Below are positions 7,858 to 59,643 of a stretch of DNA of 64,000 bases, in pieces. A program made the position numbers and the translations under genes. The DNA comes from Novosphingobium arvoryzae. Lineage in GTDB: Bacteria; Pseudomonadota; Alphaproteobacteria; Sphingomonadales; Sphingomonadaceae. How positions within the stretch are numbered: the first letter of the stretch is position 1; each line of letters begins with the position of its first letter. The stretch lies in contig NZ_BMZD01000003.1 of assembly GCF_014652615.1 (NCBI RefSeq), positions 434,001-498,000 on the forward strand. Direction: 5' to 3'. The notes under the pieces were generated by a model. The model had not been told where the DNA came from, made no database searches, and was given only the letters and a program-made list of their open reading frames with translations.

Positions 7858-8011
7858 CGGAATGAACATTATCGGCCAAGATCGCCGCCACTCCGGACCG
7901 TCCTGAGCGCACCGCCGCCGCCTGGCACCCCCGCGAAAGCAAGGGATTTCGGCGGTGCCGCCTGTTCCCGGCATCATCCGCCCCGAGCCAGCGACACTCG
8001 CAACACTGATT

Positions 8012-8041
8012 TGCGCATTTACAATTCTCACTTGTTACGCA
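8012..8041. promoter_or_regulatory. Putative steroid-regulon operator, copy 1 (TGCG-N22-CGCA)
   Basis: Spaced inverted repeat TTGCG...ACGCAA, with exactly 22 nt between TGCG and CGCA, ending 56 nt before the TonB receptor start. The right arm reads TTACGCA. It shares geometry with the copies at 10842, 16627 and 28744. The regulator is unknown. Confidence 0.7.
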
Positions 8042-8097
8042 ATTCGCGCCGACCTGCCGGACCATTGGCTTAAAGAATGGGTGACAAGGGAGTGATC

Positions 8098-10752: not shown

Positions 10753-10841
10753 GCGTATGGGGCGATGCGGGCAACCAGATTGCCATTTCCCGCATATTCA
10801 GTCCGCAAATTGCCACCGAATAGCGCATACCCGTCGGCATA

Positions 10842-10871
10842 TGCGTTTATGTGAGTCACTTTTTCTACGCA
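10842..10871. promoter_or_regulatory. Putative steroid-regulon operator, copy 2 (TGCG-N22-CGCA)
   Basis: ATGCG-N22-CGCAT inverted repeat with right arm CTACGCA, ending 86 nt before the extradiol dioxygenase start. Spacing is identical to the other copies. It lies in a 205-nt AT-richer stretch between the receptor terminator and the next operon. Confidence 0.7.
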
Positions 10872-10957
10872 TTCGACGATTAGTTTGATTCTCGTCAAAT
10901 ACCACTCCCCCCTTCCCGGCATAGCCTTTGGCCATAACCGCAGCCGGAGGGATGAGC

Positions 10958-11869
10958 ATGGAAGTGGCAAGCCTCAGTTACGTCGTGGTCTCCGCCACCT
11001 CAACCGCCGCCTGGCGCGCGTTCGCGCAAGACATCCTGGGGATGAGTGCCCACGATGCTCCCGGCGGCCTGGCCCTGCGCATGGACGAACGGGCTGGCCG
11101 GGTCTTCGTGATGCCGGGCGCCACTGACGGCTATTTCGCTTCCGGCTGGGAACTGCGCTCCGCCGCCGAGTTCGAGGCCGCGAAGGCCGATCTGACCCGC
11201 CACGGCGTCACCTTCCATCCCGCCACGCCAGCGGAACGCGCGCTGCGCCATGTGTTCGACATGGTGTGGTTCACCGATCCGTCCGGCAACCGCCACGAAC
11301 TGGCTTACGGCTACGTCACCGATTTCGCCCGGTTCGTCTCGCCGCACGGGGTGGACTTCGTCACCGGCGATCTTGGCCTGGGCCATATGGTCCTGCCCGC
11401 CCCGCAGATCGACGCGACCCGCGATTTCCTGATGGACGTGCTGGGCTTTGGCCTGTCGGACATCCTGGTCCATCGCCCCCTGCCCGACCTGGCCCAGCGG
11501 ATCGATTTCATGCACTGCGCCAATGGCCGGCATCACAGCCTGGCCCTGTTCGAGGGCGAAGTTCCTTCGGGCTGCGTCCACCTGATGTTCGAGGTCGCCA
11601 ATCTCGACGAGGTCGGCCGCGCCTATGACCGGATGCAGCGCAGCGGCGCACGCCTGATGGCGACGCTGGGCAAGCACACCAACGATCACATGACCAGTTT
11701 CTACCTGATGTCCCCCGGCGGCTTCGCGATCGAATACGGCTGCGGCGGGCGGACCATCGATTGGGATCACCACACCGTTTTCGAAAGCACTTCCGTCAGC
11801 CTGTGGGGCCATGACTTCAGCGTCGGGTTCGGCGCTGACGAGCAGGCCCAGCTGGCCAACGCGGCCTGA
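10958..11869 (+). CDS. Type I extradiol ring-cleavage dioxygenase (VOC fold), module 1
   Basis: Two-domain vicinal-oxygen-chelate dioxygenase, 303 residues, of the BphC/HsaC kind, which opens a catecholic ring meta to the hydroxyls using Fe(II). Candidate metal ligands sit where expected in the C-terminal domain: H143 (GLGHMVL), H192/H193 (GRHHSLAL) and E259 (FAIEYGCG). The start is MEVASL, 6 nt after GGAGGG; an ATG at 10952 is too close to that site. It is first in an operon with an HsaA-like hydroxylase and two Rieske oxygenases, so the substrate is probably a phenolic seco-steroid or hydroxylated A-ring. A second VOC dioxygenase lies at 57.8-58.7 kb; which one is the true HsaC equivalent cannot be told from sequence. 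Confidence 0.88.
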   Translation: MEVASLSYVVVSATSTAAWRAFAQDILGMSAHDAPGGLALRMDERAGRVFVMPGATDGYFASGWELRSAAEFEAAKADLTRHGVTFHPATPAERALRHVFDMVWFTDPSGNRHELAYGYVTDFARFVSPHGVDFVTGDLGLGHMVLPAPQIDATRDFLMDVLGFGLSDILVHRPLPDLAQRIDFMHCANGRHHSLALFEGEVPSGCVHLMFEVANLDEVGRAYDRMQRSGARLMATLGKHTNDHMTSFYLMSPGGFAIEYGCGGRTIDWDHHTVFESTSVSLWGHDFSVGFGADEQAQLANAA

Positions 11870-11895
11870 TCAACCTTTACACCGGGAGACACACA

Positions 11896-13089
11896 ATGCC
11901 CCAGACCATTCCCGCCTCTTCCGACCTCGCCGCCGAGCTGGTCGAGCGCGCGCGCGCCATGATCCCCGCCCTGCGCGACCGTGCCGCCTGGTGCGAACGC
12001 GAATGCAAGGTCCATGACGACACGATCCGCGACTTTCAGGACGCCGGGTTCTTCAAGATCCTCCAGCCCGAGCGCTACGGCGGATACGAATTGGACCCGC
12101 AAGTGTTCTACGCCGTGCAGATGACCGTGGCCGAAGGCTGCATGTCCTCTGCGTGGGTGCTGGGCGTCGTCGCCGTGCACAACTGGCAACTGGCGCTGTT
12201 CGATGCCCAGGCGCAGGAAGACGTGTGGGGCCAGGACCCGACCACGCTGATCTCGTCCAGCTACATGCCCCGCGCGCAAGTCACCCCGGTCGAGGGCGGC
12301 TATCGCGTCTCGGGCCGCTGGGGTTACTCGTCGGGCGTCGATCACTGCGAATGGGCGTTCCTGGGCGGGCTGGTGCCCGATCCCGAAGGCGGCGCCCCCG
12401 ATTACCGCACCTTCCTGATCCCGCGCAGCGACTTTGAAATCGACTACGCGTGGAACACGCTGGGCCTGCGCGGCACGGGCAGCCAGGACGTGGTGGTGAA
12501 GGATGCCTTCGTCCCCGCCTATCGCTCGCACCGTTCGAAGGACGGGTTCGCCGCGACCAGCCCGGGCCTGAAGGTCAACGACGCGCCGCTCTACAAGCTT
12601 CCGTTCGGCCAGATTTTCGTGCGGGCGGTGTCGTCCTCGTCGATCGGGGCGCTGCAAGGTGCGCTGAACGATTTCACCGGATATGCCGGCAACCGCGTCA
12701 GCAACAACGACTTCGCCAAGCTGGCGGACGACCCGGACGTCACCATCATCCTGTCGGACACGGCCTGCGCCATCGACGAGATGAAGACCACGCTGAACCG
12801 CAACTTCGATGCGCTGATGGCCGCGGCCCGGGCCGGCAAGGACATCGATCTCGATGACCGCCTGCTCTACCGCCACCAGTCCGCCCAGGTCGTGGACCGC
12901 TGTGCGCAGCTGATCACGCGGATGTTCTACGCCAGCGGGGCCGACGGCATCTACCTCGACCGGCCGCTTGGGCGGACCTTCGTCGACATTCACTGCGGCC
13001 GCACCCACGTCGCCAACAACTTTGCCAAGACGGGCCGCAACATGGGTGCGGTCATGCTGGGCAAGCCCAACGCCGACACCTTCATCTAA
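11896..13089 (+). CDS. HsaA-like flavin-dependent monooxygenase, module 1
   Basis: Acyl-CoA-dehydrogenase-fold hydroxylase, 397 residues, of the HsaA / p-hydroxyphenylacetate hydroxylase oxygenase group. It would use reduced flavin from a separate reductase to hydroxylate a phenol ortho to its hydroxyl, creating the catechol for the extradiol dioxygenase encoded 26 nt upstream. Visible family features are GFFKILQPERYGGYE, AEGCMSSAW, SGRWGYSSGVDHCEW and GTGSQDVVVKDAFVP. The catalytic-base glutamate motifs of true acyl-CoA dehydrogenases are absent. No flavin reductase (HsaB) gene is in the window. A paralogue with the same landmarks lies at 59692. Confidence 0.88.
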   Translation: MPQTIPASSDLAAELVERARAMIPALRDRAAWCERECKVHDDTIRDFQDAGFFKILQPERYGGYELDPQVFYAVQMTVAEGCMSSAWVLGVVAVHNWQLALFDAQAQEDVWGQDPTTLISSSYMPRAQVTPVEGGYRVSGRWGYSSGVDHCEWAFLGGLVPDPEGGAPDYRTFLIPRSDFEIDYAWNTLGLRGTGSQDVVVKDAFVPAYRSHRSKDGFAATSPGLKVNDAPLYKLPFGQIFVRAVSSSSIGALQGALNDFTGYAGNRVSNNDFAKLADDPDVTIILSDTACAIDEMKTTLNRNFDALMAAARAGKDIDLDDRLLYRHQSAQVVDRCAQLITRMFYASGADGIYLDRPLGRTFVDIHCGRTHVANNFAKTGRNMGAVMLGKPNADTFI

Positions 13090-13108
13090 GCCAACGGGGA
13101 GAGAGACG

Positions 13109-14197
13109 ATGGCTACTACTGCTGAATACGGGCTGGGCCCGCACACATTTCCACGCGGCTGGTTCATGATCGCGACGTCCGAGGACGTCGCCGACAAGCC
13201 GGTTCCGCTGCACTTCTTCGGACGCGAATTCGTGGCCTATCGCGGCGAAAGCGGACGGGTCTATCTGGTCGACGCCTATTGCCCGCACATGCGCATCCAC
13301 ATCGGCCGCAACACCACCAGCTATGTCGTCAAGGACGGTGAGCAGATCCAGGGCGAATCCATCCGCTGCCCCGGCCACGGCTGGCGCTTTGGCCCGGATG
13401 GCAAGGCCGACGACATCCCCTATTCCACCCACGGCATCCCCAAGGCCGCCTGCATCAAGACCTTCCCGGTGGAAGAGCGCGCGGGCTGCATCTGGATGTG
13501 GCATGATGCCGAAGGCGGCGCGCCGGACTTCGACCTGCCCGACTTCGCCGAATGGGACATGGAGGAACAGGGCTGGGTCCGCTGGCGGCTCGATCACCTC
13601 GGCACCCTGCCGATCCATCCGCAGGAAATCGTCGACAACATGACCGACGTTGCCCACTTCATCCCGGTTCACGGCAGCAAGGACATCGTCTGGTTCGAGA
13701 ACGAATTCCGCGATCACAAGATCTTCCAGCGCTTCGGCGCCGGGCATCGCACGCTGGTGTCCGACAGCGAGCACGACGTGCTGGTCACCGACACCTGGTA
13801 TACCGGCCCCGGGATCCTGCTGTCGCGGATGGAAGGGCAGCACCCTTCGATCATCATGATCTGCAACACGCCGGTCGAGGATGGCGAAGTGCGCGTCTGG
13901 TATGCGCTGATGGTCAAGGTCTCCGACACCCGCGCCGATGAGGCCGGGGTATCGATGGCGCGCAGCTATCAGGACGTTGCGCTGGATGCCTTCGCGCAGG
14001 ATTTCGAAGTGTGGCAGCACAAGGAAGCCGCGATCAACATCATGCAGATCCCGGACGACGGCCCGTTCCACAAGGAACGCATCTGGTATCGCCAGTTCTA
14101 CAACCCCCGCGACAAGGCAGCGGAATTCCAGGGGCGCGTCAACGGCGTCCATACCACCATCGACAAGCGGCCCGGCGCCAAGTCCAAGGCTGCGTGA
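13109..14197 (+). CDS. Rieske non-haem iron oxygenase, alpha subunit (KshA-like group)
   Basis: Oxygenase component of a Rieske monooxygenase, 362 residues. Rieske ligands are C58 and H60 (CPH) and C87 and H90 (CPGH). The mononuclear iron site shows D180, H183 and H188 in NMTDVAHFIPVHG. The Cys-His pairs are separated by 26 residues rather than the usual 16-18, so the cluster loop carries an insertion (residues about 66-80). The start is MATTAEYG with GGGGAGAG upstream; a longer frame overlaps the hydroxylase gene and is not used. The operon context makes a steroid ring hydroxylase likely, with 3-ketosteroid 9-alpha-hydroxylase one candidate. No reductase or ferredoxin partner is encoded nearby. 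Confidence 0.88.
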   Translation: MATTAEYGLGPHTFPRGWFMIATSEDVADKPVPLHFFGREFVAYRGESGRVYLVDAYCPHMRIHIGRNTTSYVVKDGEQIQGESIRCPGHGWRFGPDGKADDIPYSTHGIPKAACIKTFPVEERAGCIWMWHDAEGGAPDFDLPDFAEWDMEEQGWVRWRLDHLGTLPIHPQEIVDNMTDVAHFIPVHGSKDIVWFENEFRDHKIFQRFGAGHRTLVSDSEHDVLVTDTWYTGPGILLSRMEGQHPSIIMICNTPVEDGEVRVWYALMVKVSDTRADEAGVSMARSYQDVALDAFAQDFEVWQHKEAAINIMQIPDDGPFHKERIWYRQFYNPRDKAAEFQGRVNGVHTTIDKRPGAKSKAA

Positions 14198-14212
14198 GCA
14201 GGAGCAACAGCA

Positions 14213-15325
14213 ATGACCACTCCCAATCCCGCAAATGACGCCCGCACGCCGCCCGTTGCCGTCTGGCAACTGCTGGAAAAGCTGCGCGGCCAGGACCTGA
14301 CCGACTGGCGCGTTGCCCCGCTCGATGGCCGCCCCTCCCCCGCCGAACGCGGGCTGGACATCGGCTTTCCGTTCGGCTGGTACGCGGTCGAGATGGCGGA
14401 CTTCGTGGCCGCCGGACAGGTCAAACCGCTGCGCTATTTCGGAACCGACCTGGCAATCTGGCGCGGTGAGGACGGCAAGGTCCGCGTGACCGATGCCTGG
14501 TGCAAGCACCTGGGCGCGCACATGGGCCATGGCGGCAAGGTTCACGGCAACCTGCTGGAATGCCCCTTCCACGCCTGGCGCTATGACGGTGACGAAGGCA
14601 CGGTGAAGGACATTCCCTATGCCAAGGCAATCCCGCCGCAGGTCAAGCGCAAGTGCCAGCGCACCTGGCCGGTGACCGAAGCGAACGGCTGGATCTGGGT
14701 ATGGTATCACCCCGACCAGAACGTTGCGCCGATGTGGGACGTGGTGGTGCACGATGAAGTTGGCGATCCGGAATGGACTCCCTTCGACACCATCGAATGG
14801 ACCGTCTACGGTTCGATCCAGAACATGGCCGAAAACGGCGTGGACGTGGCCCACTTCAAGTACATCCACGGCACTGCCGACGTCCCCAAGGCGGAATTGC
14901 GCTGGGGCGACTGGGGCCGCGGCGCAGACGTCAAGGCGCAGATGGGCACCCCCGCCGGGATCGTCGATGGCCTGATCAGCTATGACACGATGGGACCGGG
15001 GCAAAGCTGGGTGCGGTTTCGCGGGATCTCCGAAACGCTGCTGGTCGCCAGCCTGGTCCCGGTCGAGGAAGACGTCCTGCGGGTGCGCTATTGCTTCACC
15101 CAGCCCAAACAGCAGGCCGATGGCCCCGGTGCCGGCCTCGCCCGCGCGCTGATCCGGGACATCTGCAAGCAGCTGGACCAGGACAAGGTGATCTGGGACC
15201 GGATGCGGTATGAACCCAACCCGATCATCTGCGACGGCGACGGCCCGATCCCGCAGTTCCGCCAGTGGTACAGCCGCTATTACGCGCAGCCCCAGGGCGA
15301 CACGAACCTGCGCGCGGTTGGCTGA
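14213..15325 (+). CDS. Rieske non-haem iron oxygenase, alpha subunit (paralogue A)
   Basis: Oxygenase component, 370 residues. Rieske ligands are C97, H99, C117 and H120 (CKH-x17-CPFH) and the iron site is D211, H214 and H219 (NGVDVAHFKYIHG). The Rieske domain is preceded by about 60 residues beginning PPVAVWQLLEKLRGQDLTDWR, an extension shared almost verbatim with the oxygenase at 22409 and not present in the adjacent Rieske gene. It is last in the dioxygenase operon, 15 nt after the previous stop and followed by a terminator. A hydroxylase acting on the steroid skeleton is inferred; the position of attack is unknown. Confidence 0.88.
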   Translation: MTTPNPANDARTPPVAVWQLLEKLRGQDLTDWRVAPLDGRPSPAERGLDIGFPFGWYAVEMADFVAAGQVKPLRYFGTDLAIWRGEDGKVRVTDAWCKHLGAHMGHGGKVHGNLLECPFHAWRYDGDEGTVKDIPYAKAIPPQVKRKCQRTWPVTEANGWIWVWYHPDQNVAPMWDVVVHDEVGDPEWTPFDTIEWTVYGSIQNMAENGVDVAHFKYIHGTADVPKAELRWGDWGRGADVKAQMGTPAGIVDGLISYDTMGPGQSWVRFRGISETLLVASLVPVEEDVLRVRYCFTQPKQQADGPGAGLARALIRDICKQLDQDKVIWDRMRYEPNPIICDGDGPIPQFRQWYSRYYAQPQGDTNLRAVG

Positions 15326-16588: not shown

Positions 16589-16626
16589 TCGAGATTCGCT
16601 CCATCAATCGCGGATTGACCGGTGTT

Positions 16627-16656
16627 TGCGTTATCCTGTAAGCAATTTCTTACGCA
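16627..16656. promoter_or_regulatory. Putative steroid-regulon operator, copy 3 (TGCG-N22-CGCA)
   Basis: TTTGCG-N22-CGCAT inverted repeat with right arm TTACGCA, ending 17 nt before the SDR start and 4 nt before its ribosome site. A TTGACC hexamer just upstream (16615-16620) could be a -35 element, which would place the repeat over the -10 region, as expected for repression. Confidence 0.7.
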
Positions 16657-16673
16657 TATCAAGGAGAGGCAGG

Positions 16674-17468: not shown

Positions 17469-17960
17469 CTACTCCTCGTCGTCGACGGGGCCACCCTTTT
17501 CGGTGATCCGCACCACGCGTGCGTTGTACTTCATCGTCTTCACCGCGATCGATGTCTCGACGTGATGCACGCCGGGGATCGCCAGGATCTTGTCAGACGT
17601 CAGTTCGATCAGCGTTTCCAGCGTGTCGAACAGGCAGAACGCCAGGATATTGAAACGGCCCATCGTGATCATTAGCGCATTGATCGGCGGGATTTCCGCA
17701 ATCTGCGCAGCCACCTCGCGGACGCTTTCGACGTCGGCCTGAATGCCGATGAAGGCCATTTTCGCACTGCTGGTCAGACCGAAGCTGGTGATCGCGGTAA
17801 AGGCGATCAGCCCTTCCTGCTGCAACCGCTTGATCCGGCCGCGCACGGTTCCTTCGGTCACGCCCAGGTCACCGGCGATCTTGCGGTTGGAAACGCGGGC
17901 ATCACGCGCCAGCACTTCGATCAGCTGGCGGTCAAGATCGTCAAGTTGCGGCGCGCTCAT
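17469..17960 (-). CDS. Lrp/AsnC-family transcriptional regulator (second of pair)
   Basis: 163 residues: N-terminal winged HTH (LDDLDRQLIEVLARDARVS...KIAGDLGVTEGTVRGRIKRL) and a C-terminal RAM-type ligand/oligomerisation domain ending in VETSIAVKTMKY. Such proteins bind DNA as dimers or higher oligomers and respond to small effectors. Its ATG overlaps the stop of the upstream paralogue (ATGA), so translation is coupled. The effector is unknown; the setting inside a steroid cluster and the operator-like repeat upstream of the pair suggest local regulation. Confidence 0.9.
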   Translation of the reverse strand: MSAPQLDDLDRQLIEVLARDARVSNRKIAGDLGVTEGTVRGRIKRLQQEGLIAFTAITSFGLTSSAKMAFIGIQADVESVREVAAQIAEIPPINALMITMGRFNILAFCLFDTLETLIELTSDKILAIPGVHHVETSIAVKTMKYNARVVRITEKGGPVDDEE

Positions 17961-18436
17961 TGCTGGCTCCGGGCTTCGAGGGGCGCGACATCGAACTGGT
18001 ATTTCAGCACGTCAACCGCGATGGCCGGCATCATCGAACGAATGCCGCGAACCTTGGAAAACTTGTCGAGCAGCAAATCGGGCAAGTCGCTGAAATCGCG
18101 CAGCACCACCAGCATGTCGATGTCATAGCGCCCGGTTACCAGGTGCGCCGCGAACACTTCGGGAAATTCGGCCAGTTCGGCAGCGACTTCGGACGCCGGG
18201 CGACCATCCACCTCGATCGCCAGCTCCATCAGCACGTTGTAGCCATGGGCTGAAAAGTCAGACACCGCGACCACACGCAGCTTGTCGGCATCTTCCATCC
18301 GGCGAATGCGGGTCGAAACAGTCGCGGCGGTCAGCCCCAGGTTGTTGGCAATCTGCTGGTTGGTCGCGCGCCCGTTGATGCGCAGCTGCTCCACGATCGC
18401 CAGATCGATATCATCGACTGAAAAGTTGTCGCCCAT
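17957..18436 (-). CDS. Lrp/AsnC-family transcriptional regulator (first of pair)
   Basis: 159 residues with an HTH (DDIDLAIVEQLRINGRATNQQIANNLGLTAATV region, residues about 8-50) and a RAM domain (VTGRYDIDMLVVLRDF). It is only distantly similar to its partner at 17469, so the pair could form a heteromer or recognise different effectors. It leads a two-gene operon. A degenerate copy of the steroid-regulon repeat lies 68 nt upstream of the start, compatible with autoregulation. Confidence 0.9.
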   Translation of the reverse strand: MGDNFSVDDIDLAIVEQLRINGRATNQQIANNLGLTAATVSTRIRRMEDADKLRVVAVSDFSAHGYNVLMELAIEVDGRPASEVAAELAEFPEVFAAHLVTGRYDIDMLVVLRDFSDLPDLLLDKFSKVRGIRSMMPAIAVDVLKYQFDVAPLEARSQQ

Positions 18437-18504
18437 GCCGCGAACAGTCCCCTCTGCAAGAACTTCGATCCCTGCCGTCCGCCCTTGGCGCGGTCAATCG
18501 CAAA

Positions 18505-18534
18505 TTCGTCGGTATTCACACGGTGTTTGACGCA
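18505..18534. promoter_or_regulatory. Degenerate operator copy (TTCG-N22-CGCA)
   Basis: Same 22-nt spacing as the perfect copies, but the left arm is TTCG and the right arm TGACGCA. It lies between the AsnC pair (start 18436, minus) and the SDR at 18665 (plus). Weaker than the other copies. Confidence 0.4.
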
Positions 18535-18664
18535 AGTCGGGACTGCGACGGCGCAAAACGCGCCAAAAAGCGCAGCCGGAATGCCCGGCGGCAGCTTTAA
18601 TCGTTGCGCTCGGTGCCTGCTAAGGGCTTAGCGAGACGGACAGGGCGATGGAGGGGACGAGCCA

Positions 18665-28639: not shown

Positions 28640-28985
28640 TTCAGATCCGCCCCCGATTCTGGCGGGCAAGTTGCACTCTGGCCATGCTCTCTCCCACACG
28701 ATTCGACGCGATAGTTCGTCGTTTTTTCCAACTTGTCACAATTTGCGGATTCCAAACAGTCAATTTTTACGCAAGATGCCAGCATCCCGGCGTAATTGGC
28801 CGAAAACGCACAACCCCCCAGATCGCGCCGATTGCGGAACATTTTGTGCCATACGGCCCAGCTACGGACAGGCATTCCGGCCTCGCCAGGGGTGGGTGAT
28901 AGTCTGGCTTGCCCGGCTCAAGGATTTGCTTTGTGGATTCCACTGCCCTTGCGATTAGGGAAACGGCCATGCATAGAAGGCAGCC
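28640..28985. promoter_or_regulatory. Divergent intergenic region, acyl-CoA ligase operon / cysD
   Basis: The longest gene-free stretch in the window (346 nt). It is AT-richer than its surroundings between 28690 and 28860 and contains operator copy 4 (28744-28773), nearer the ligase operon. The last 130 nt before cysD hold no repeat that I can interpret. No small reading frame looked convincing. Confidence 0.6.
28744..28773. promoter_or_regulatory. Putative steroid-regulon operator, copy 4 (TGCG-N22-CGCA)
   Basis: TTTGCG-N22-CGCAA inverted repeat with right arm TTACGCA. It lies 104 nt upstream of the ligase operon (minus) and 212 nt upstream of cysD (plus). The distances favour control of the ligases. 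Confidence 0.7.
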
Positions 28986-29891
28986 ATGTCGAACACTCTG
29001 ACCCATCTCCAGCGGCTCGAAGCCGAAGCGATCCACATCCTGCGCGAAGTCGTAGCCGAGGCCGAACGCCCGGTCATGCTCTATTCCGTGGGCAAGGACA
29101 GCGCCGTGATGCTGCATCTGGCGCGCAAGGCGTTCTATCCCTCGCCCCCGCCCTTCCCGCTGCTGCACGTCGACACCACGTGGAAGTTTCGCGCAATGTA
29201 TGAGCTGCGCGACAAGATGGCCCGGGAATCGGGCATGGACCTGATCGTCTACCAGAACCCCGAAGCCGCCGCCCGCGGCATCAACCCATTCGATCACGGC
29301 GCGCTCCACACCGACATGTGGAAGACCGAGGGGCTGAAGCAGGCGCTCGACAAGTACGGCTTTGACGCGGCCTTCGGCGGGGCACGCCGGGACGAGGAAA
29401 AGAGCCGCGCCAAGGAACGCATCTTCTCGTTCCGCACCGCCAACCACGGCTGGGACCCCAAGAACCAGCGACCGGAGCTGTGGAACCTCTACAACGCCAA
29501 GAAACACAAGGGCGAAAGCATCCGTGTCTTCCCGATCAGCAACTGGACCGAACTCGATGTGTGGCAATACATCCAGCTGAACGACGTGCCGATCGTCCCG
29601 CTCTATTTCGCGGCCAAGCGCCCCACGGTGATGCGCGATGGGATGCTGCTGATGGTGGACGACGACCGCTTCCCGCTCCAGCCCGGTGAAGTGCCGGTGG
29701 AGCGTTCGATCCGGTTCCGCACGCTGGGATGCTATCCGCTGACCGGCGCGGTGGAGAGCGAGGCGGCGACCCTGTCCGAAGTGATCCAGGAAACGCTGCT
29801 GACCACCACCAGCGAACGCCAGGGCCGCGCCATCGACAAGGACGCCAGCGGCGCCGGTATGGAAGTGAAAAAGCAGCAGGGATATTTCTGA
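28986..29891 (+). CDS. cysD: Sulfate adenylyltransferase subunit 2
   Basis: ATP sulfurylase small subunit, 301 residues, which forms adenylylsulfate from sulfate and ATP together with CysN. The PP-loop motif is visible in [15 protein letters not shown], followed by [12 protein letters not shown] and the [20 protein letters not shown] segment. It is the first gene of cysD-cysNC-cysQ, overlapping cysNC by one base (TGATG). It is a housekeeping sulfur-assimilation gene but lies between two steroid-type operons. Confidence 0.97.
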
Positions 29892-31810
29892 TGACCGACA
29901 CCCCCGTTTATCAGACCGAGGCCCTGATCGCCGAGGACATCGACGCCTATCTCGACAAGCATCAGCACAAGACGATGCTGCGCTTCATCACCTGCGGCAG
30001 TGTGGACGACGGCAAGTCCACGCTGATCGGGCGGCTGCTTTATGACAGCAAGATGATCTTCGAGGACCAGTTGGCCGCGCTGGAAAACGACAGCAAGAAG
30101 CAGGGCACGCAGGGGCAGGAGATCGACTTTGCGCTGCTGGTCGATGGCCTTGCCGCCGAACGCGAACAGGGCATCACCATCGACGTCGCCTATCGCTTTT
30201 TCGGCACCGAGAAGCGCAAGTTCATCGTCGCGGACTGCCCGGGCCATGAGCAGTACACCCGCAACATGGTGACCGGCGCCTCGACCGCCGATTTGGCGGT
30301 GATCCTGATCGACGCACGCAAGGGCGTGCTGACGCAGACCCGGCGGCACAGCTTCCTGTGCCACCTGATCGGCATCCGCCATATCGTGCTGGCGGTGAAC
30401 AAGATGGACCTGGTCGATTACAGCCAGTCCCGCTTTGACGAGATCGTGGCCGATTACCGCGCCTTCGCCGAAAGCATCGGCATCACCGCCTTCACCGCGC
30501 TTCCGATTTCCGGGTTCAAGGGCGACAACATCACCGCCCTGTCCGCGAACACCCCGTGGTTCACCGGCCCGACGCTGGTCGAGCACCTGGAAACGGTGGA
30601 GCTGGACAATACTGCCGATCAGGCCAGGCCGCTGCGGATGCCGGTGCAATGGGTCAACCGCCCGAACCTGGACTTCCGGGGGTTTTCCGGCCTGATCGCA
30701 AGCGGCTCCGTGCGCCCCGGCGATGCGGTGCGCGTACTGCCATCGGGCAAGACCAGCACGGTCACGCGGATCGTCACGCTCGACGGTGATCTGGACCAGG
30801 CGGCCGCCGGCCAATCGGTCACGCTGTGCTTCGCGGACGAGATCGACTGTTCGCGCGGGGACGTCATCGCGGCAGCCGATGCCCCGCCCGAAGTCGCAGA
30901 CCAGTTCGAAAGCACACTGGTCTGGCTGGATGACGACGCCCTGCTGGTCGGACGGTCATACTGGTTGAAGCTGGGCACACAGACCGTGTCGGTAACAGTG
31001 CAGGCCCCCAAGTACACGATCAACGTCAACACACTGGACAAGCTGGCCGCCAAGACGCTGGAGCTGAATGCCATCGGCGTGGCCGAGATCACCACCGACC
31101 GGCCGCTGGTCTTCGAACCCTATACCGACAGCCGGACGCTGGGCGGGTTCATCCTGATCGAAAAGCTGTCCAACCGCACGGTGGGTGCGGGCATGCTGCA
31201 CTTCAGCCTGCGCCGGGCGCAGAACGTGCACTGGCAGGCGCTGGACATCACCCGCGCCGCCCATGCCGCGCTGAAGCACCAGAAACCCGCCGTGCTGTGG
31301 TTCACCGGGCTGTCCGGTTCGGGCAAGTCGACCATTGCCAACATGGTCGAAAAGCGCCTCCACGCGCTGGGGCATCACACCTTCCTGCTGGATGGCGACA
31401 ACGTCCGCCACGGGTTGAACAAGGACCTCGGCTTTACCGAGGCCGACCGGATCGAGAATATCCGCCGCGTTGGCGAAGTGGCCAAGCTGATGACCGATGC
31501 CGGCCTCATCGTGCTCACCGCCTTCATCAGCCCCTTCGCCGCCGAGCGTGAAATGGTGCGCGCGATGCTGCCTGCCGGAGAGTTCATCGAGATCTTCGTC
31601 GACACCCCGCTGGAAGTGGCCGAAGCGCGTGATGTGAAGGGCCTCTACAAGAAGGCCCGGAGCGGACAGCTGAAGAACTTCACCGGGATCGACAGCCCCT
31701 ATGAAGCGCCGCGAAATCCGGAAATCCGGGTCGACACCACGCGCGAAACGCCCGAAGAGGCCGCTACACGGATCGTGGACATGATTACAGGGAATCGCGA
31801 CGACTCATGA
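29891..31810 (+). CDS. cysNC: Bifunctional sulfate adenylyltransferase subunit 1 / adenylylsulfate kinase
   Basis: 639-residue fusion. The N-terminal CysN GTPase has GSVDDGKST at 36-44, [12 protein letters not shown] and NKMDLVD, followed by EF-Tu-like beta-barrel domains. The C-terminal CysC kinase begins about residue 460 with P-loop GLSGSGKST at 473-481 and contains [17 protein letters not shown], typical of APS kinase. The fusion makes PAPS from sulfate. CysN-CysC fusions are common in alphaproteobacteria. It overlaps cysD by 1 nt and cysQ by 4 nt. PAPS also donates sulfate in sulfonation, but no sulfotransferase gene is in the window. Confidence 0.97.
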
Positions 31811-32550
31811 ATGCCGACCATATGACGGATGCCCAGCTGGCCGCGCACCTTGCCGAAGTGGCCGGGCGGCTGCTGCTGGACGTGCGCGCCGCCGGGGTGC
31901 TCTCGCTCAAGGCGCTGGGCAAGGCGGGCGATGCCACGGCCAACCAGTTCCTGTGCCATGCACTGCGCGAGCTGCGCCCCGATGACGGGCTGCTTTCGGA
32001 AGAGGAAAAGGACAACTTCGACCGGCTGGCCAGCTCGCGCGTGTGGATCGTCGATCCGGTCGACGGCACGCGCGAGTATGGCGAGGAACGGACCGACTGG
32101 GCCGTCCACGTCGCGCTGGCGATCGATGGCCGCCCGGTCCACGGCGCGGTCGCGCTGCCGGGCGCGGGCCTCGTGCTGCGCAGCGATCAGCCCGCCCCCG
32201 TCCCCCCCGCCCCCGACCGGCTGCGGATGGTCGTCAGCCGCACGCGTCCGGCCGCCGAGGCCATGGCCGTTGCGGCCGCGCTCGATGCCGAAGTGATCCC
32301 CATGGGCAGCGCCGGAGCGAAGGCGATGGCGGTCGTGCTGGGCCAGGCCGACATCTACCTGCATACCGGCGGCCAGTACGAATGGGACAGCTGCGCCCCT
32401 GCCGCCGTCGCGCTCGCCCACGGGCTGCACGTCAGCCGGATCGATGGCAGCCCGCTGGTCTATAACCAGGCCGATACCTACATGCCCGACCTGCTGATCT
32501 GCCGTCCGCAGCATGCGCAGCCGGTGCTGGACTTGCTGGCCCAGCAATAG
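31807..32550 (+). CDS. cysQ: 3'(2'),5'-bisphosphate nucleotidase CysQ
   Basis: 247-residue inositol-monophosphatase-fold enzyme removing 3'-phosphoadenosine phosphate, the by-product of PAPS use. Metal-site motifs are [19 protein letters not shown] and [11 protein letters not shown]. It is translationally coupled to cysNC by an ATGA overlap and closes the sulfate-activation operon. The N-terminus has an alternative Met at residue 6; the first was kept because of the overlap. Confidence 0.93.
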
Positions 32551-39044: not shown

Positions 39045-39197
39045 GGACGCGCCCCTTTCCTGGGCTTGATGCAGACTGTGGCCGAATGTGTGCCACCCGG
39101 CCCGGACTGCGGATTGCACCGCCTCTCGCATGATGCTTAGTCATGGTCTGGCCCCGGTGGCAACGGCCACCTGGCAAGGGAAGGAACGCTGGCGGAC

Positions 39198-40040
39198 ATG
39201 AACGGGCGGCACCGCGTGCTCTATGCGGGATCCCGGCTCCACACCCCGGTGCTGGAGCGGCTTGCCCCTGCCCGCGCGGCCGGATTTACCGCCATTTCGA
39301 TCTGGCCCAGCGACGTGCGCGGGATGGAGCTGGACGCGGTCCGGCAACAGGTGAACGCTGCCGGTCTGGTGGTTACCGAAGTGGAGATGATCGGCAACTG
39401 GCTGCCCGCCCACGCCGCCGCGCCCGATGGTGTCTGGCGGGCAGTGAAATGGCAGACGGCGGATCGCCTGCTGCCGCTTGCCGCCGCGCTGGGCGCGCAG
39501 ACCGTTTCGGCCAGCGAGCTGTTCGGCGTATCCGATCCCCTCCCCGAAATCGCCCGCCATTTCGGCACACTCTGCCACCACGCTGCCGACTACGGCCTGC
39601 GGATCGCACTGGAATTTGTGCCAACCGGCGCGGTGCCGTCGCTCGCGGCGGCCTGGGAAGTGATCCAGCGCGCCGATTGCCCCAATGGCGGGCTGATGAT
39701 CGACAGCTGGCACTTCCATCGCAGCGGATCATCGCTGGATCAGTTGTCGCGGATTCCGGGCGACCGGATCTTCTCGGTCCAGCTGTCCGACGCCAGCGCA
39801 GGACCGGAAGCGGACCTGACCGCCGGCATGACCAATCGCCTGCGCCCCGGGGCCGGGGTCATCCCCTGGCTTGGCTTCATGCAGGCCTTGTCCGCCACGG
39901 GCACCACGTGCCCCATCGGCATCGAAGCTTTCGCAAGGGACATCGATGCCCTGCCCACCGACACCGCAATGCAGGCCTGCGCCGATGCGCTGGACGCCTG
40001 CCTTGCTCTTTCCGACATGACCATGGAAGCTCTGCAATGA
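39198..40040 (+). CDS. Xylose-isomerase-like TIM-barrel protein
   Basis: 280 residues of the sugar phosphate isomerase/epimerase superfamily (AP endonuclease 2 fold). Metal-ligand-type positions appear in ALEFVPTG, MIDSWHFHRSG and GIEAF. Its stop overlaps the start of the flavin oxidoreductase gene (ATGA). Proteins of this fold found in steroid or aromatic operons may be isomerases or lyases of unknown specificity. The exact substrate cannot be inferred; a sugar substrate seems unlikely in this setting. Confidence 0.8.
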   Translation: MNGRHRVLYAGSRLHTPVLERLAPARAAGFTAISIWPSDVRGMELDAVRQQVNAAGLVVTEVEMIGNWLPAHAAAPDGVWRAVKWQTADRLLPLAAALGAQTVSASELFGVSDPLPEIARHFGTLCHHAADYGLRIALEFVPTGAVPSLAAAWEVIQRADCPNGGLMIDSWHFHRSGSSLDQLSRIPGDRIFSVQLSDASAGPEADLTAGMTNRLRPGAGVIPWLGFMQALSATGTTCPIGIEAFARDIDALPTDTAMQACADALDACLALSDMTMEALQ

Positions 40041-42169
40041 CCTCGAACCGCTATCCCCACCTGCTCTCCCCCGGCAAGATCGGCACGTTGGAGCTGAAGA
40101 ACCGCATCGCCGTGACGGCAATGGGCGTCAGCCTGTCGGAAGATGATGGCACCGTTGGCGAACAGCTGATTGCCTATCACGAGGAGCAGGCGCGCGGCGG
40201 CGCGGGCCTGATCATTTCGGGCGTGGCCGGGGTGGCCTGGCCGGTCGGCCAGGTGGCGTGGCAGCAGACCGCGATTTCGGATGACAAGTTCATTCCCGGC
40301 CTCAAGGCGCTTACCGACCGGGTCCATGCCCACGGCGCGAAAATCGCGGTGCAGCTGCACCACGGCGGGCTGGTCGCGGGTTACTCGCATGCACGCTATG
40401 GTCACCCGCTCTGGGCGCCCAGCCTGCCCCCCGCCCCCAAGGGCAACTTCACCGAGCATTTCCTGATGGAAGAGCTGGCCGGGATGGCGGGCATGAAGCC
40501 GCCGGAAATCAAGGTGCTCGAACAGGCCGACATCGATCTGGTCGTCGCCCAGTTCGGCGCTGGCGCGCGCCGGGCCAAGGCCGCCGGGTTCGATGGGCTG
40601 GAGATTCACGCCGGGCATGGCTATCTGCTGTCCAGCTTCGTCTCGCCCTATACCAACAAGCGCACCGACCAGTACGGCGGCCCGCTGGAAAATCGCCTGC
40701 GGCTGTTGCTGGAAGTATTGGCGGCGGTCCGCGCCGAAGTGGGGGCTGACTATCCGGTATGGGTCAAGCTGGACTCGCGCGAGATCGGCAAGGACGGCAT
40801 CACGATCGAGGACAGCAAGGCCGCTGCCCGCATGCTGGAAGCCGCCGGGGCCGACGCCATCACCGTCACCACCTATCACGAAACCGGCAAGGGCGCGCTC
40901 CATTCGGAATCGCACACCCCGCACGTGGAAAGCTTCAACCTGCCCGCCACGGCAGAGATGCGCAGCGCAGTCAGCATCCCGGTGATCGGATCGGGCCGGG
41001 TCGAGCCGGAGACGGCGGACAAGGCCATTGGTTCGGGCGAGCTGGATTTCGTGGCAATGGGCCGCAAGCTGCTGGCTGACCCGGCGCTGCCCAACAAGCT
41101 GCTGGCGGGCAACCCGGACAAGGTGCGCCCCTGCGTCTATTGCTACACCTGCATCAGCGCGATCTACATGGGCGGCGGAGCGCGCTGCGCGGTCAACCCG
41201 GACCTCAGCTTCGAACATGAACCGGCTGAACTGAAGGCTGCCGCGCCCAAACGCGTGGCCGTGATCGGCGGCGGTCCGGGCGGCATGGAAAGCGCCCGGC
41301 GTCTGGCCGCGCTGGGCCACAAGGTGACGCTGATCGAACAGAGCGAACGCCTGGGCGGCACGCTCCGCTTCGCCAGCCTGGCCTATCCCGCCAACGAACG
41401 CCTGCTGGACTGGCTGCGCCAGGAAGTGGCCGAAGCGGACATCGACGTGCGCCTGTCCACCACGGCCACGTCCGAATTGCTGCGCAGCCTGAACGTCGAC
41501 GACGTGATCGTGGCGACTGGCGCCATCCGCGGCATGCCTGAGATTCCGGGCGGCGAATTGGCGCACGTGTTCTCTGGCGACGACATGCGCCGGATGATGC
41601 TGGGCGAAAGCTCTGAAGAACTGAAGCGCAAGACCGGCCTGTTCACCCGCCTCGCCACCAAGGTCGGCGCGGCGACCGGGGCAACCGCCAATCTGGCGCT
41701 AGTGCGCAAGGCCACCCATGCGTGGATGCCGCTGGGTGACAACATCGCCATCATCGGCGGCGAACTAGTCGGCATCGAACTCGCCGAGTTCCTGGCCGAG
41801 CGTGGCCGCACCGTGAACGTGATCGAGGAAGCCCCGCGTCTGGGCAAGGGGCTGACGCTGGTGCGGCGCATGCGCATCCTGACCGAACTGGCCGAACACG
41901 GCGTCGGCCTGCATGGTGGCGCCAGCGCGGTGACCATCGGGCCGAAAGAGGTCACGTTCACGGACATGCAGGGCAATGTGCAGACCGTGCCGGCCGACAA
42001 CGTGATCGTCGCCAAGGGCGCGGCGGGCGACCTGAAGCTGGCGGACACGCTGAGCGCAGCGGGATTCCGGGTCCACCCGATCGGCGATGCCACCGGCGTC
42101 GGTTACATCGAAGGTGCCATGCACGGCGCCCGCGCGGCGGTGCGGGCAATTGCCGGGGTCGCGGCTTGA
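40037..42169 (+). CDS. BaiCD/BaiH-like NADH:flavin oxidoreductase (2,4-dienoyl-CoA reductase family)
   Basis: 710 residues in three parts: an N-terminal FMN TIM barrel of the OYE type (HAGHGYLLSSF with the His/His substrate pair), an iron-sulfur segment with four cysteines (CVYCYTC...RCAVNP), and a C-terminal FAD/NAD(P) domain (VAVIGGGPGGMESARRLAALG and NIAIIGGELVGIELAEFL). Enzymes of this layout reduce conjugated C=C bonds of enoyl-CoA or 3-keto-4-ene steroid acids, as BaiCD and BaiH do in bile-acid dehydroxylation. It is translationally coupled to the TIM-barrel gene upstream and to a SnoaL-like gene downstream (TTGA overlap). The steroid substrate is inferred. Confidence 0.88.
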   Translation: MTSNRYPHLLSPGKIGTLELKNRIAVTAMGVSLSEDDGTVGEQLIAYHEEQARGGAGLIISGVAGVAWPVGQVAWQQTAISDDKFIPGLKALTDRVHAHGAKIAVQLHHGGLVAGYSHARYGHPLWAPSLPPAPKGNFTEHFLMEELAGMAGMKPPEIKVLEQADIDLVVAQFGAGARRAKAAGFDGLEIHAGHGYLLSSFVSPYTNKRTDQYGGPLENRLRLLLEVLAAVRAEVGADYPVWVKLDSREIGKDGITIEDSKAAARMLEAAGADAITVTTYHETGKGALHSESHTPHVESFNLPATAEMRSAVSIPVIGSGRVEPETADKAIGSGELDFVAMGRKLLADPALPNKLLAGNPDKVRPCVYCYTCISAIYMGGGARCAVNPDLSFEHEPAELKAAAPKRVAVIGGGPGGMESARRLAALGHKVTLIEQSERLGGTLRFASLAYPANERLLDWLRQEVAEADIDVRLSTTATSELLRSLNVDDVIVATGAIRGMPEIPGGELAHVFSGDDMRRMMLGESSEELKRKTGLFTRLATKVGAATGATANLALVRKATHAWMPLGDNIAIIGGELVGIELAEFLAERGRTVNVIEEAPRLGKGLTLVRRMRILTELAEHGVGLHGGASAVTIGPKEVTFTDMQGNVQTVPADNVIVAKGAAGDLKLADTLSAAGFRVHPIGDATGVGYIEGAMHGARAAVRAIAGVAA

Positions 42170-42601: not shown

Positions 42602-44137
42602 TTACCCGCGCAGTTCGGTTTTCAGCACCTTGCCGCTGGCATTGCGGGGCAGATCCTCGACGAAGGCAAAGCTGCGCGGCACCTTGTAGTTGGCCATGTT
42701 CTCGCGGCTCCAGCCGATTAGTTCGGCCTCGGTCGCGGCCGCACCGGGGCGCAGCACGACATAGGCCTTGCCGACTTCGCCCATGCGCTCGTCCGGCACG
42801 CCGACCACCGCGACCATGGCAATCGCCGGATGGACCGCCAGCAGCTTCTCAACTTCGGCCGGATAGACGTTGAAGCCGCCGGAGATATACAGGTCCTTCA
42901 TGCGGTCGGTGATCCGCACGTATCCGGCCTCGTCCATCGTCCCGACATCGCCGGTGTGGAGCCAGCCGTCAGCGTCGATCGCTTCCGCCGTCGCCTCCGG
43001 ATCGTCCAGGTAGCCCAGCATCACGCCCTGCCCGCGCACCAGGATTTCCCCGGCCTCGCCGCGCGGCACTTCGCGGCCCTCGGCATCGGCAATGATCACT
43101 TCATTGCCGGGAATGGCCGCGCCACAGGTCTGCGCGATCAGCTCCACCGGATCGCCGGGGCGGCAGCCGGTGATGTTGACGCATTCGGTCATGCCATAGG
43201 CGGTGATGATGTCGCGGATGCCCAGTTCGCTGCGGATGCGCTCCACCAGCACTGGCGGCACGGTGGCCGCGCCCGTCGTTCCGCCGCGCAGGGAAGAGGT
43301 GTCGAACGGAGCCTTTTCCAGCTCGGTCAGCAGCATCTGGAACACGGTCGGTGGCCCGGGGAAGAAGTTGATCTTCTCCCGCTCAATCAGGTCAATCGCC
43401 TGTCGCACGTCGAACTGCGCCATCGGCACGGCCACTGCGCCCGACAACAGGCAGGCCACCCAGCCCACCTTCATCCCGAACGAATGGAAGAACGGATTGG
43501 CGATCAGGTAGCGCTCGCCGAACGCCAGTCCGGTGTTGCCGATCCACACCGCGCACTGCGGCAGCACGCGGCCATGCGTCATCAGCACGCCCTTGGGGCT
43601 GCCGGTGGTGCCGCTGGTGAACAGGATATCGCTGATGGTGTCCGCATCGATGCCGGCAAGGGCCGCATCGACTGCCAGATCGGCCGCGCCCTGGCCGCTG
43701 GCGAGGAAGGCCGCGAACTGCGTGTCCAGCATGACCGTTTCACGCAGGTCCGGCAGATCCTCATCCGCCAGCAGCGCCCGGTAGTCGATCCCAAGGAACC
43801 CGGTCACCGTGAACAGCAGCTTGGCATGGGTGCGGCGCAGGATATCCCCGGCCTCGCGACCCTTCAGTCGGGTGTTGAGCGTCACCACCGCCGCGCCGAC
43901 GCTCATCGCCGCCAGCGCCGCGACGATCCATTCACGGCAGTTCGGCGCCCAGACCGCCACCCGGTCTCCCGACCCGATGCCCCGCGCCAGCAGCGCGGAG
44001 GCTCCGGCCCGGGATTGCTCCCACAGCTGCGCAAAAGTCCACGTTTCCCCGCCCTCGATTACCGCGGGGGCATCGGGCCAGGTCCGCGCGGCGGCTTCGG
44101 CTGCGTGGGGAATCGTCGCGGGCAGCGGACTGAGCAT
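42602..44137 (-). CDS. Acyl-CoA synthetase (FadD3-like by context)
   Basis: 511-residue AMP-forming ligase with LFTSGTTGSPKGVLMTHGR, TAYGMTECVNITG, ITDRMKDLYISGGFNVYP and the C-terminal catalytic Lys in LPRNASGKVLKTELRG. The start overlaps the thiolase stop (TGATG). It is the last gene of the 18-gene operon that carries the C/D-ring pathway; in actinobacteria the ligase that starts this pathway is FadD3, which activates the hydrindanone propionic acid HIP. The same role is likely here but not proven by sequence alone. Confidence 0.88.
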   Translation of the reverse strand: MLSPLPATIPHAAEAAARTWPDAPAVIEGGETWTFAQLWEQSRAGASALLARGIGSGDRVAVWAPNCREWIVAALAAMSVGAAVVTLNTRLKGREAGDILRRTHAKLLFTVTGFLGIDYRALLADEDLPDLRETVMLDTQFAAFLASGQGAADLAVDAALAGIDADTISDILFTSGTTGSPKGVLMTHGRVLPQCAVWIGNTGLAFGERYLIANPFFHSFGMKVGWVACLLSGAVAVPMAQFDVRQAIDLIEREKINFFPGPPTVFQMLLTELEKAPFDTSSLRGGTTGAATVPPVLVERIRSELGIRDIITAYGMTECVNITGCRPGDPVELIAQTCGAAIPGNEVIIADAEGREVPRGEAGEILVRGQGVMLGYLDDPEATAEAIDADGWLHTGDVGTMDEAGYVRITDRMKDLYISGGFNVYPAEVEKLLAVHPAIAMVAVVGVPDERMGEVGKAYVVLRPGAAATEAELIGWSRENMANYKVPRSFAFVEDLPRNASGKVLKTELRG

Positions 44138-45339
44138 CAGGCGACCTCGAACAGACCAGCCGCGCCCATGCCGCCCGCGACGCACATGGAGATGACGACA
44201 TACTTCACGCCGCGGCGCTTGCCTTCGATCAGGGCGTGGCCGACCAGGCGGCTCCCGGTCATGCCAAAGGGATGGCCCAGCGCGATGCCGCCGCCGTTGA
44301 CGTTCAGCTTGTCGGGATCGATCCCCAGCTTGCGCTGACAATAGATCGCCTGGCTTGCGAAGGCTTCGTTGATTTCAAACAGGCCGATATCGTCAATCGA
44401 CAAGCCCGCACGATCTAGCAGCTTGGGGATCGCGAAAACCGGGCCGACGCCCATTTCATCCGGCTCACACCCGGCAACCTGGAAACCGCGATAGATGCCC
44501 AGCACCGGCAGGCCTTCCTTCTGCGCGGTATCGAGATCCATGATCACCTGCGCCGACGCGCCATCCGACAGCTGCGAGGCGTTGCCGGCCGTAATGTGGC
44601 GGCCTTCCTTGATGACCATGCCGTCCTTGAACACCGGGCGCAGGCTCGACAGACCCTCGGCCGTCGTGTCGCCGCGCACGCCCTCGTCGGCGGTCACGGT
44701 GACGGTTTCGCGGCCGGTTTCGTTGCCTTCCTTGTCCTTGAGCGACTTTTCGACGGTGATGGCCGCGATTTCGGTATCGAACCGGCCCGCCGCCTGCGCC
44801 GCGCCCGCACGCTGCTGGCTGAGCGCGGAGAAGGCGTCCTGGTCCTCACGGCTGATGCCATAACGCTCGGCCACGATTTCCGCCGTCTCGATCATCGCCA
44901 TGTAGGCATAGGGATCAGCCGCGATCACCGCCTTCGAGCGGTTGCGCCACGCGGGCGCGAACTTGTTGAGCGTCATCGAGATCGTCTCGACCCCGCCCGC
45001 CACGGCCACATCGACCTCGTCGCAACGGATCGCCCGCGCGGCGAGTGCAATGGCGTTGAGGCCCGACGAGCACTTGCGGTCCAGCGTGAAGCCGCTGGTG
45101 GTGTTGGGCAGCTTCGACGCATGGACCGTCAGGCGACCCAGATTATAGCTCTGCGTGTTCCAGTGGTTCCCGCAACCCAGGTACACGTCATCCACGCGGG
45201 CCGGATCGATGCCCGCGCGCTCCAGCGCGGCATCGACGACATGGGCCGACAGCACGGGGGCCTCGGTGTCGTTGAACGCCCCGCGATAGGCTTTGCCGAT
45301 CCCGGTACGGGCAGTGGAAACGATGGCGGCATCACGCAT
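44137..45339 (-). CDS. Acetyl-CoA C-acyltransferase (thiolase), first copy
   Basis: 400-residue thiolase. Nucleophile C90 lies in [13 protein letters not shown], with the [24 protein letters not shown] and [10 protein letters not shown] motifs holding the His and second Cys. It cleaves a 3-ketoacyl-CoA to acetyl-CoA and a shortened acyl-CoA. ATG at 45339 was preferred over an upstream TTG because AAGGAA is well spaced. Together with the thiolase at 50127 it gives two thiolases in one operon; one may serve side-chain removal (FadA5-like) and the other ring catabolism (FadA6-like). Confidence 0.92.
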
Positions 45340-45363
45340 GGTCTGGTTCCTTGGCAAACGGGT

Positions 45364-45738
45364 TCACTTGGCAATCATGTTGCCGGGGCCGAAAAAGGCC
45401 CGCATTTCGCGCACCTTGCCATCGGCATTGAACGCGAAGGTATCGATCACGTGGATTTCCATGTCCTTGCCGTCAAAATGAAGCGGCACATGGAACGCAA
45501 ATGCGGCGTGGCCTTCCGCAAGGCGGATCGGGCCGTCGAGCACCAGCTTCGCGCCGGTGGCCATCGATGCCTGGTAGAATTCGCGGATCGCCGCATGGCC
45601 CACCTTGGGCGGGGTACCAACCGGGTCTTCCACCACGGCATCCTCGGCAAAGATCGCCACGGCCTGCTCCGGATCGCCGGCCGCAAAGGCGGCGACATAG
45701 GCGAGAACCGCGGCTTCCATCTGTTCAGGCGTGGCCAT
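45364..45738 (-). CDS. ksi: Steroid delta-isomerase (3-ketosteroid isomerase)
   Basis: 124 residues, almost colinear with Comamonas testosteroni KSI as I remember it. The catalytic residues fall at identical numbers: Y14 (LAYVAAF), D38 (VVEDPVG) and D99 (VIDTFAFN), together with Y55 (REFYQAS), AAFAFHV and the C-terminal MRAFFGPGN. It moves the delta-5 double bond of 3-keto-5-ene steroids into conjugation at delta-4. The numbering match supports MATPEQ as the start; a second Met immediately before it could also serve. It lies within the C/D-ring operon, 5 nt after the MaoC-like gene. This is the clearest direct evidence that the window deals with steroids. Confidence 0.93.
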   Translation of the reverse strand: MATPEQMEAAVLAYVAAFAAGDPEQAVAIFAEDAVVEDPVGTPPKVGHAAIREFYQASMATGAKLVLDGPIRLAEGHAAFAFHVPLHFDGKDMEIHVIDTFAFNADGKVREMRAFFGPGNMIAK

Positions 45739-45743
45739 CATGC

Positions 45744-46202: not shown

Positions 46203-46204
46203 GG

Positions 46205-49220: not shown

Positions 49221-49221
49221 G

Positions 49222-51278: not shown

Positions 51279-51286
51279 GGTGATCC

Positions 51287-53382: not shown

Positions 53383-53395
53383 CAGAACGCATCCA

Positions 53396-54151: not shown

Positions 54152-54154
54152 GTC

Positions 54155-55222: not shown

Positions 55223-55227
55223 TTGGC

Positions 55228-56124: not shown

Positions 56125-56138
56125 GGTTCTCTCTCCCC

Positions 56139-59569: not shown

Positions 59570-59614
59570 AAATCGTCATTATCGAAAGCTGGAATGCTTT
59601 TCAATTGACGATTT
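59570..59614. promoter_or_regulatory. Inverted repeat AAATCGTCA-N27-TGACGATTT in the divergent promoter
   Basis: Perfect 9-bp arms at 59570-59578 and 59606-59614 in the 178-nt spacer between two large divergent operons. The right arm abuts the operator copy at 59614. It could be a second regulator site. Confidence 0.5.
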
Positions 59615-59643
59615 GCGTATTCGCTGGCAGAAAAAATTACGAA
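59614..59643. promoter_or_regulatory. Operator copy with one degenerate arm (TGCG-N22-CGAA)
   Basis: TTTGCGTAT...TTACGAA, same 22-nt spacing as the perfect copies. It ends 48 nt before the HsaA-like gene and lies 100 nt upstream of the divergent operon, so it could govern both. Confidence 0.6.

Follow-up and report, generated by a model that had tools for sequence, protein, structure and literature searches.

Introduction

The removal of steroids in wastewater, sediments and manured soil often takes place at low oxygen, although several steps of the known aerobic pathway depend on O2. KshA, HsaA and HsaC each consume O2, as established for these families, whereas the already aromatic A-ring of an oestrogen needs no KshA step. 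Parallel isozyme sets for 9,10-seco ring cleavage in one genome are already known from Rhodococcus, in which the cholate cluster of R. jostii RHA1 encodes the cholate-specific enzymes KshA3, HsaA3, HsaC3 and HsaD3 (PMC8399759). A two-module arrangement also exists in a studied sphingomonad, Caenibius (Novosphingobium) tardaugens NBRC 16725 (EGO55_13440/13445 and the SD cluster), in which it was described as scattered homologues. As to regulators, contiguous Lrp genes have been noted for Sphingobium sp. Chol11 (PMC12882949), and the literature searched held no operator or FNR link. The idea of low-oxygen ring cleavage has been raised for the hypoxia-associated catechol 2,3-dioxygenases of subfamily I.2.C (Kukor and Olsen 1996, as cited in PMC5972620). 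Here, these systems are compared with a 64 kb stretch (hereafter the window) of a 3.29 Mb sphingomonad genome, in which the two copies of the ring-cleavage genes may differ in the oxygen level they serve and not in the steroid.

Gene content of the two modules

Module 1 (10958-15325) comprises the HsaC1, HsaA1, KshA and Rieske oxygenase genes, all tightly spaced on the forward strand (Table 1), which bears out the proposed association of this module with two Rieske oxygenases. KshA_1 combines a Rieske domain with the KshA C-terminal domain and is nearest to solved KshA structures; the second Rieske oxygenase resembles KshA weakly. The content of the module is limited to O2-consuming enzymes, without an O2-independent hydrolase or dehydrogenase. 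The HsaC1-HsaA1-KshA_1 core keeps its synteny in almost all of some 25 Sphingomonadales loci, with the hydrolase and KstD genes lying outside it. On the conjugative plasmid pMSHV of Sphingobium herbicidovorans (locus L007, 15001-30764), module 1 adjoins a cluster of cbb3 oxidase, FixJ and Crp/Fnr genes.

Table 1. Positions of the features discussed in the text, in window coordinates
Feature	Position	Strand	Basis or remark
Operator, upstream of TonB receptor	8011-8042		
Operator of module 1, ATGCGT-N20-ACGCAT	10841-10872		dyad upstream of HsaC1 in 27/28 loci
FNR/FnrL-type box TTGATTCTCGTCAA	10885-10898		only exact copy in 64 kb
Putative -10-like hexamer TAGCCT	10922-10927	+	30 nt from box centre
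HsaC1, TesB/HsaC-type extradiol dioxygenase	10958-11869	+	profile, tree, catalytic residues
HsaA1, seco-steroid 4-hydroxylase oxygenase	11896-13089	+	profile, tree
KshA_1, 3-ketosteroid 9alpha-hydroxylase oxygenase, Rieske	13109-14197	+	PF19298 E 2.8e-58; best PDB matches are KshA
Second Rieske oxygenase, KshA-related	14213-15325	+	weaker KshA relative
Operator, upstream of SDR gene	16626-16657		
Lrp/AsnC regulator 1, candidate operator-binding protein	17469-17960	-	putative
Lrp/AsnC regulator 2 (Lrp2)	17957-18436	-	
Operator, between Lrp2 and divergent SDR gene	18504-18535		possible autoregulation
Operator, divergent acyl-CoA synthetase/cysD intergenic region	28743-28774		
C/D-ring (HIP) degradation operon: FadD3-like ligase, thiolases, acyl-CoA dehydrogenases, hydratases, CoA transferase	42602-57865	-	
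HsaC2, extradiol dioxygenase of operon-slot lineage	57814-58740	-	profile, tree, catalytic residues
SDR linked to HsaC2	58746-59513	-	
Operator of module 2, between SDR/HsaC2 and HsaA2	59613-59644		conserved in module-2-only genomes (L191-L194)
HsaA2, seco-steroid hydroxylase	59692-60906	+	profile, tree
HsaD-like meta-cleavage product hydrolase	60918-61745	+	HsaD E 1e-44, BphD E 1e-45
KstD-like FAD dehydrogenase, NF005510 subfamily	61750-63207	+	

Module 2 and the C/D-ring operon together span 42602-63207, with HsaC2 at the head of the operon on the reverse strand and HsaA2, HsaD and the KstD-like gene divergent from it; this gene content agrees with the earlier assignment of HsaD-like and KstD-like enzymes and of the C/D-ring operon to module 2. 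With a single HsaD and a single C/D-ring operon in the window, both modules can share a common lower pathway, as had been suggested. A second KshA (KshA_2, 54% identity to KshA_1) is encoded 23 kb beyond the window; each module has its own KshA lineage.

In a sample of 250 genomes of the family, 27 carried an operon-slot dioxygenase (HsaC2 lineage in 16, a sister lineage in 11). The HsaC1 lineage was present in 12 of these 27 and in none of the other 223 (Fisher p = 2e-13, uncorrected for relatedness); in this sample, module 1 occurs only together with an operon-slot dioxygenase. Because KshA_2 (about 55-57% to KshA_1) was found in all module-2-only genomes checked, these counts make module 2 look like the basic set and module 1 like an addition. 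A loss of HsaA2 in N. aromaticivorans was considered and ruled out, as the gene is present as SARO_RS19615 in the HsaA scan. Loss of HsaE/G/F from module 2 did not consistently track the presence of module 1 across the loci compared.

The HsaF-type aldolase homologues of the source genome are located on contigs other than C3, which holds the window. On contig C5 (248202-256439), a carbazole-type Rieske oxygenase, a ferredoxin reductase, a VOC dioxygenase and a hydrolase lie beside a hydratase/aldehyde dehydrogenase/aldolase set, and another aldolase copy (79%) is found on contig C1 at 471947; one of the two may act in the steroid pathway, which here has no such genes in its module 2. The sulfate-activation genes cysD, cysNC and cysQ (28986-32550) are situated within the steroid cluster; cysD/cysNC also flank a steroid operon in Pseudomonas (L033), cysD does so in a further genome (G124), and relatives (L191, L094) have sulfotransferase genes close to module 2. 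Sulfonation of steroids may belong to the lifestyle. A 1008-aa old-yellow-enzyme protein is encoded at 39143-42169, with about 300 N-terminal residues lacking a Pfam domain assignment.

Identity and ancestry of the ring-cleavage enzymes

The sequence-only reading had ascribed to each module a VOC dioxygenase with His/His/Glu ligands and an HsaA-like hydroxylase, and both assignments held. The iron ligands His145/His215/Glu266 and the second-sphere residues His200/Tyr256 (numbering of Mtb HsaC) are intact in HsaC1 and HsaC2, which have the two-domain VOC fold, and both modules are thus predicted to be catalytically intact. Each of the four ring-cleavage proteins hits an HsaC or HsaA model (E values from 1e-67 to 1e-119), with a score below the equivalog cut-off; for the NCBIfam HsaC model, HsaC1 and HsaC2 reached 278 and 228 bits, with a cut-off of 450. 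As this cut-off was possibly set for HsaC of actinobacteria, the more cautious designation is HsaC-like or TesB-like.

In a maximum-likelihood tree of 49 rows, both window dioxygenases were grouped with Mtb HsaC and the TesB-position genes in a clade (100/94) that excludes BphC and EdcB/OecC. Within it, HsaC1 and its sphingomonad orthologues join the C/D-ring-operon dioxygenase of Pseudomonas, an Oceanospirillales strain and Vibrio (100/96), and HsaC2 joins another sphingomonad lineage (98/96) that also has members next to HsaA2/HsaD genes. A single clade of HsaC1 and HsaC2 was rejected (AU p=0.0005). The HsaA tree gave the same picture more weakly, with a clade of HsaA1 and HsaA2 disfavoured but not rejected (AU p=0.06). 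HsaC1 and HsaC2 are 36-39% identical, with fixed differences outside the metal site, and HsaA1 and HsaA2 46%. Together with the trees, these values rule out a recent duplication, in which the two copies would branch together, and the proposed distinctness of the modules withstood the phylogeny. Low identity and separate tree positions indicate that the modules are old, separately derived lineages, originating either by horizontal transfer or by ancient paralogy.

A repeat search of the window detected only coding-sequence similarity. More distant members of the dioxygenase family are encoded elsewhere in the source genome, outside the window. A third VOC dioxygenase and HsaA-like hydroxylase pair (contig C1, 445355-447489) is followed by gentisate-type dioxygenase and FAA-hydrolase genes and probably belongs to a different aromatic pathway.

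A common operator and a candidate regulator pair

A 32-bp dyad, TTGCGT-N20-ACGCAA (matches at at least 10 of 12 positions), was found at six intergenic sites in the window, always with a spacing of exactly 20, as compared with a mean of 0.09 and a maximum of 2 in 1000 shuffles. Looser scans of the window (3 mismatches) and the genome (2 mismatches) yielded sites no commoner than in controls, and the significance of the motif is restricted to tight matches in intergenic DNA at fixed spacing. One copy precedes each module, as had been noted before, and a further one lies upstream of KshA_2. The presence of one operator at both modules places them in one steroid regulon and argues against separate substrate-specific control; the dyad may be a regulon motif of steroid catabolism in sphingomonads. 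All 16 steroid-module genomes examined had a relative of Lrp2 (15 at 50% identity or above, one at 39%), as against 0 of 14 others. Given this distribution and the operator in the Lrp2/SDR intergenic region, the Lrp/AsnC pair is likely to read the operator.

An FNR-type box upstream of module 1

The sequence TTGAY-N4-RTCAA is present as an exact match in 28 of 30 module-1 upstream regions (0.045 expected from shuffles) and missing from the other two. Among 24 non-redundant module-1 loci, pairwise identity was 77% in the box and 33% in its flanks, the box being almost the sole conserved stretch. Its centre is a constant 30 nt from a -10-like TAGCYT hexamer in 10 of 10 close relatives; with this hexamer as the promoter reference point, the predicted geometry fits class II FNR activation from -41.5. 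The centre-to-centre distance between operator and box is 35-37 bp in most module-1 loci and about 99 in others. No exact box was detected in 19 loci examined, most of them module-2 regions, or upstream of gammaproteobacterial tesB-like genes.

The source genome contains 16 FNR boxes, as opposed to 1 in the reversed control. One of them, between ccoN and ompW and beside a Crp/Fnr regulator, served as a positive control, and the regulator, adjacent to the cco cluster, is of the FnrL type (Cys4, Cys7, Cys15, Cys103), scoring 230 bits with the FnrL model, below the equivalog cut-off of 300. The Rhodobacter FnrL consensus is the same as the module-1 box and is likewise found upstream of ccoN (PMC4634722). 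The module-1 box is presumably bound by FnrL, although another protein of the Crp/Fnr family could bind it, or FNR could act as a repressor. Further boxes are found at a globin gene and at ligAB, where the exact match (contig C10, 21348) directly precedes the two protocatechuate dioxygenase genes; this is another ring-cleavage dioxygenase with such a site.

A proposed division of labour between the modules

A core of O2-consuming enzymes only, together with the FNR box, is most simply explained by an oxygen-responsive isozyme set. That module 1 is such a set, performing the O2-dependent steps and passing its product to the one HsaD and the C/D-ring pathway, is in our judgement an evenly balanced proposition; that sphingomonads keep a separate FNR-activated operon of oxygen-consuming steroid enzymes only, with the modules divided by oxygen level and not by steroid class, is put forward more tentatively. 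Two isozyme sets would then carry out the O2-dependent steps of 9,10-seco steroid breakdown, module 2 with KshA_2 forming the standard set (KshA_2, HsaA2, HsaC2, HsaD, KstD and the C/D-ring operon) and module 1 an accessory operon (KshA_1, HsaA1, HsaC1 and the further Rieske oxygenase). Both would answer one steroid-responsive regulator, probably the linked Lrp/AsnC pair, via the 32-bp operator. Because the predicted class II FNR site is found at module 1 alone, this module should be under double control and transcribed at low oxygen in the presence of steroid, provided that FNR, as we infer, activates it. At low oxygen, 9alpha-hydroxylation, 4-hydroxylation and meta-cleavage would continue through module 1, whose product would join the single HsaD/HIP pathway. 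The module-1 enzymes would be expected to perform better at low O2; HsaC1 groups with TesB of gammaproteobacteria that lack the box, so its ancestry gives no indication that the enzyme itself is adapted to low oxygen.

The sequence-only reading had instead divided the modules between oestrogen-like and androgen- or bile-acid-derived substrates, which now appears very improbable. In the oestrogen degrader C. tardaugens, module 1 lies about 22 kb from edcB-edcC, and its hydroxylase is induced 8 fold by estradiol (PMC7793797); however, according to a second study, testosterone induces the same hydroxylase 7.2 fold and KshA 7.8 fold (PMC6895838), and with this equal response module 1 is not oestrogen-specific. 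Moreover, 4-hydroxylation of oestrone in C. tardaugens is the work of the P450 EdcA (PMC7793797), module 1 carries a KshA, and the operator common to both modules has no copy in the edcB/edcC promoter region of this strain. Dioxygenases of the EdcB/OecC type were recognised by their indolepyruvate-oxidoreductase neighbour (edcB-edcC arrangement): in Croceicoccus estronivorus, the dioxygenase adjoins a 1152-aa gene of this kind with a POR domain, and the EdcB-position protein of C. tardaugens is 78% identical to the Croceicoccus dioxygenase. In the 49-row tree, this type falls outside the clade of HsaC, TesB and both window copies, which leaves an oestrogen-versus-androgen split unsupported. 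An oestrogen identity of either module was ruled out by the phylogeny, as neither window dioxygenase clusters with EdcB/OecC, and neither adjoins an IOR-type EdcC. C. estronivorus (L187) also possesses a third, divergent complete set (KshA, HsaA, HsaD, VOC dioxygenase and FAD dehydrogenase) in one run without the operator.

A substrate-class split within the 9,10-seco steroids is possible, although on balance unlikely: the modules would act on different intermediates (for example C19 as against side-chain-bearing, delta-6 or 12-hydroxylated bile-acid intermediates), in keeping with the deep divergence, the fixed HsaC1/HsaC2 differences, the separate KshA lineages and the precedent of RHA1, but substrate-specific sets would be expected under separate control and not under one operator, module 1 has no HsaD and KstD of its own, and the FNR box is left unexplained. 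The promoters point to oxygen instead. We consider it improbable that the enzymes are interchangeable, with module 1 acting as a strongly inducible booster over a module 2 of high basal expression. Testosterone in C. tardaugens raises the module-1 hydroxylase and KshA genes 7-8 fold and the SD cluster (module 2) only slightly, from a high basal level (PMC6895838), a pattern that fits either conditional control or dosage, and single knock-outs in module 2 (tesD in C. tardaugens; Nov2c349 in Chol11, PMC8540908) cause no growth defect. Yet Chol11 has one HsaA homologue and its deletion is still silent, so that a missing phenotype is no evidence of backup by module 1, and a dosage effect gives no reason to expect conservation of an FNR site among promoters that have diverged. 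Against the oxygen-responsive isozyme set count the two module-1 loci without the box and the testosterone induction itself, which was obtained in cultures not described, in the accessible text, as oxygen-limited (PMC6895838). If the oxygen-responsive set is real, an operon of oxygenases only, conserved and preceded by an FNR site, would tell how sphingomonads cope at low oxygen, account for the duplicate KshA/HsaA/HsaC genes in their genomes and offer a testable reason for the silent single-gene knock-outs in C. tardaugens.

Comparison with known systems

No mention of the common operator, the separate ancestry of the modules or the FNR box was found in the literature searched, the coverage of which was incomplete, and the accessible part of the C. 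tardaugens literature contained no report of the module-1 dioxygenase, the operator or the box; the FNR box at module 1 is new here. C. tardaugens itself has the same two modules in the same gene order as the window, with the operator at both and the FNR box and the Lrp pair at module 1. It differs in that its edc oestrogen cluster lies between the modules and that HsaE/G/F-type genes are kept in module 2. Chol11 shows the module-2 order in Nov2c347-Nov2c367 (HsaD 348, HsaA 349, HsaC 350, CoA transferase 351/352) with a contiguous Lrp pair (PMC8399759, PMC12882949), but its single HsaA homologue (PMC8540908) leaves it without a module 1. The RHA1 set, which includes HsaD and KstD, is complete and cholate-specific, whereas module 1 of the window consists of oxygenases only and has its operator in common with module 2. 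Among C/D-ring operons of the Comamonas/Pseudomonas TesB type, the nearest relative of HsaC1 is the gammaproteobacterial dioxygenase that stands first in the operon (51-57%); in sphingomonads, by contrast, the HsaC1 lineage is linked to KshA and HsaA, and HsaC2 fills the operon slot. The subfamily I.2.C enzymes likewise represent low-oxygen ring cleavage, but they act on other substrates (PMC5972620), and the evidence there comes from the enzymes and not, as in the window, from an FNR-type promoter on a steroid operon.
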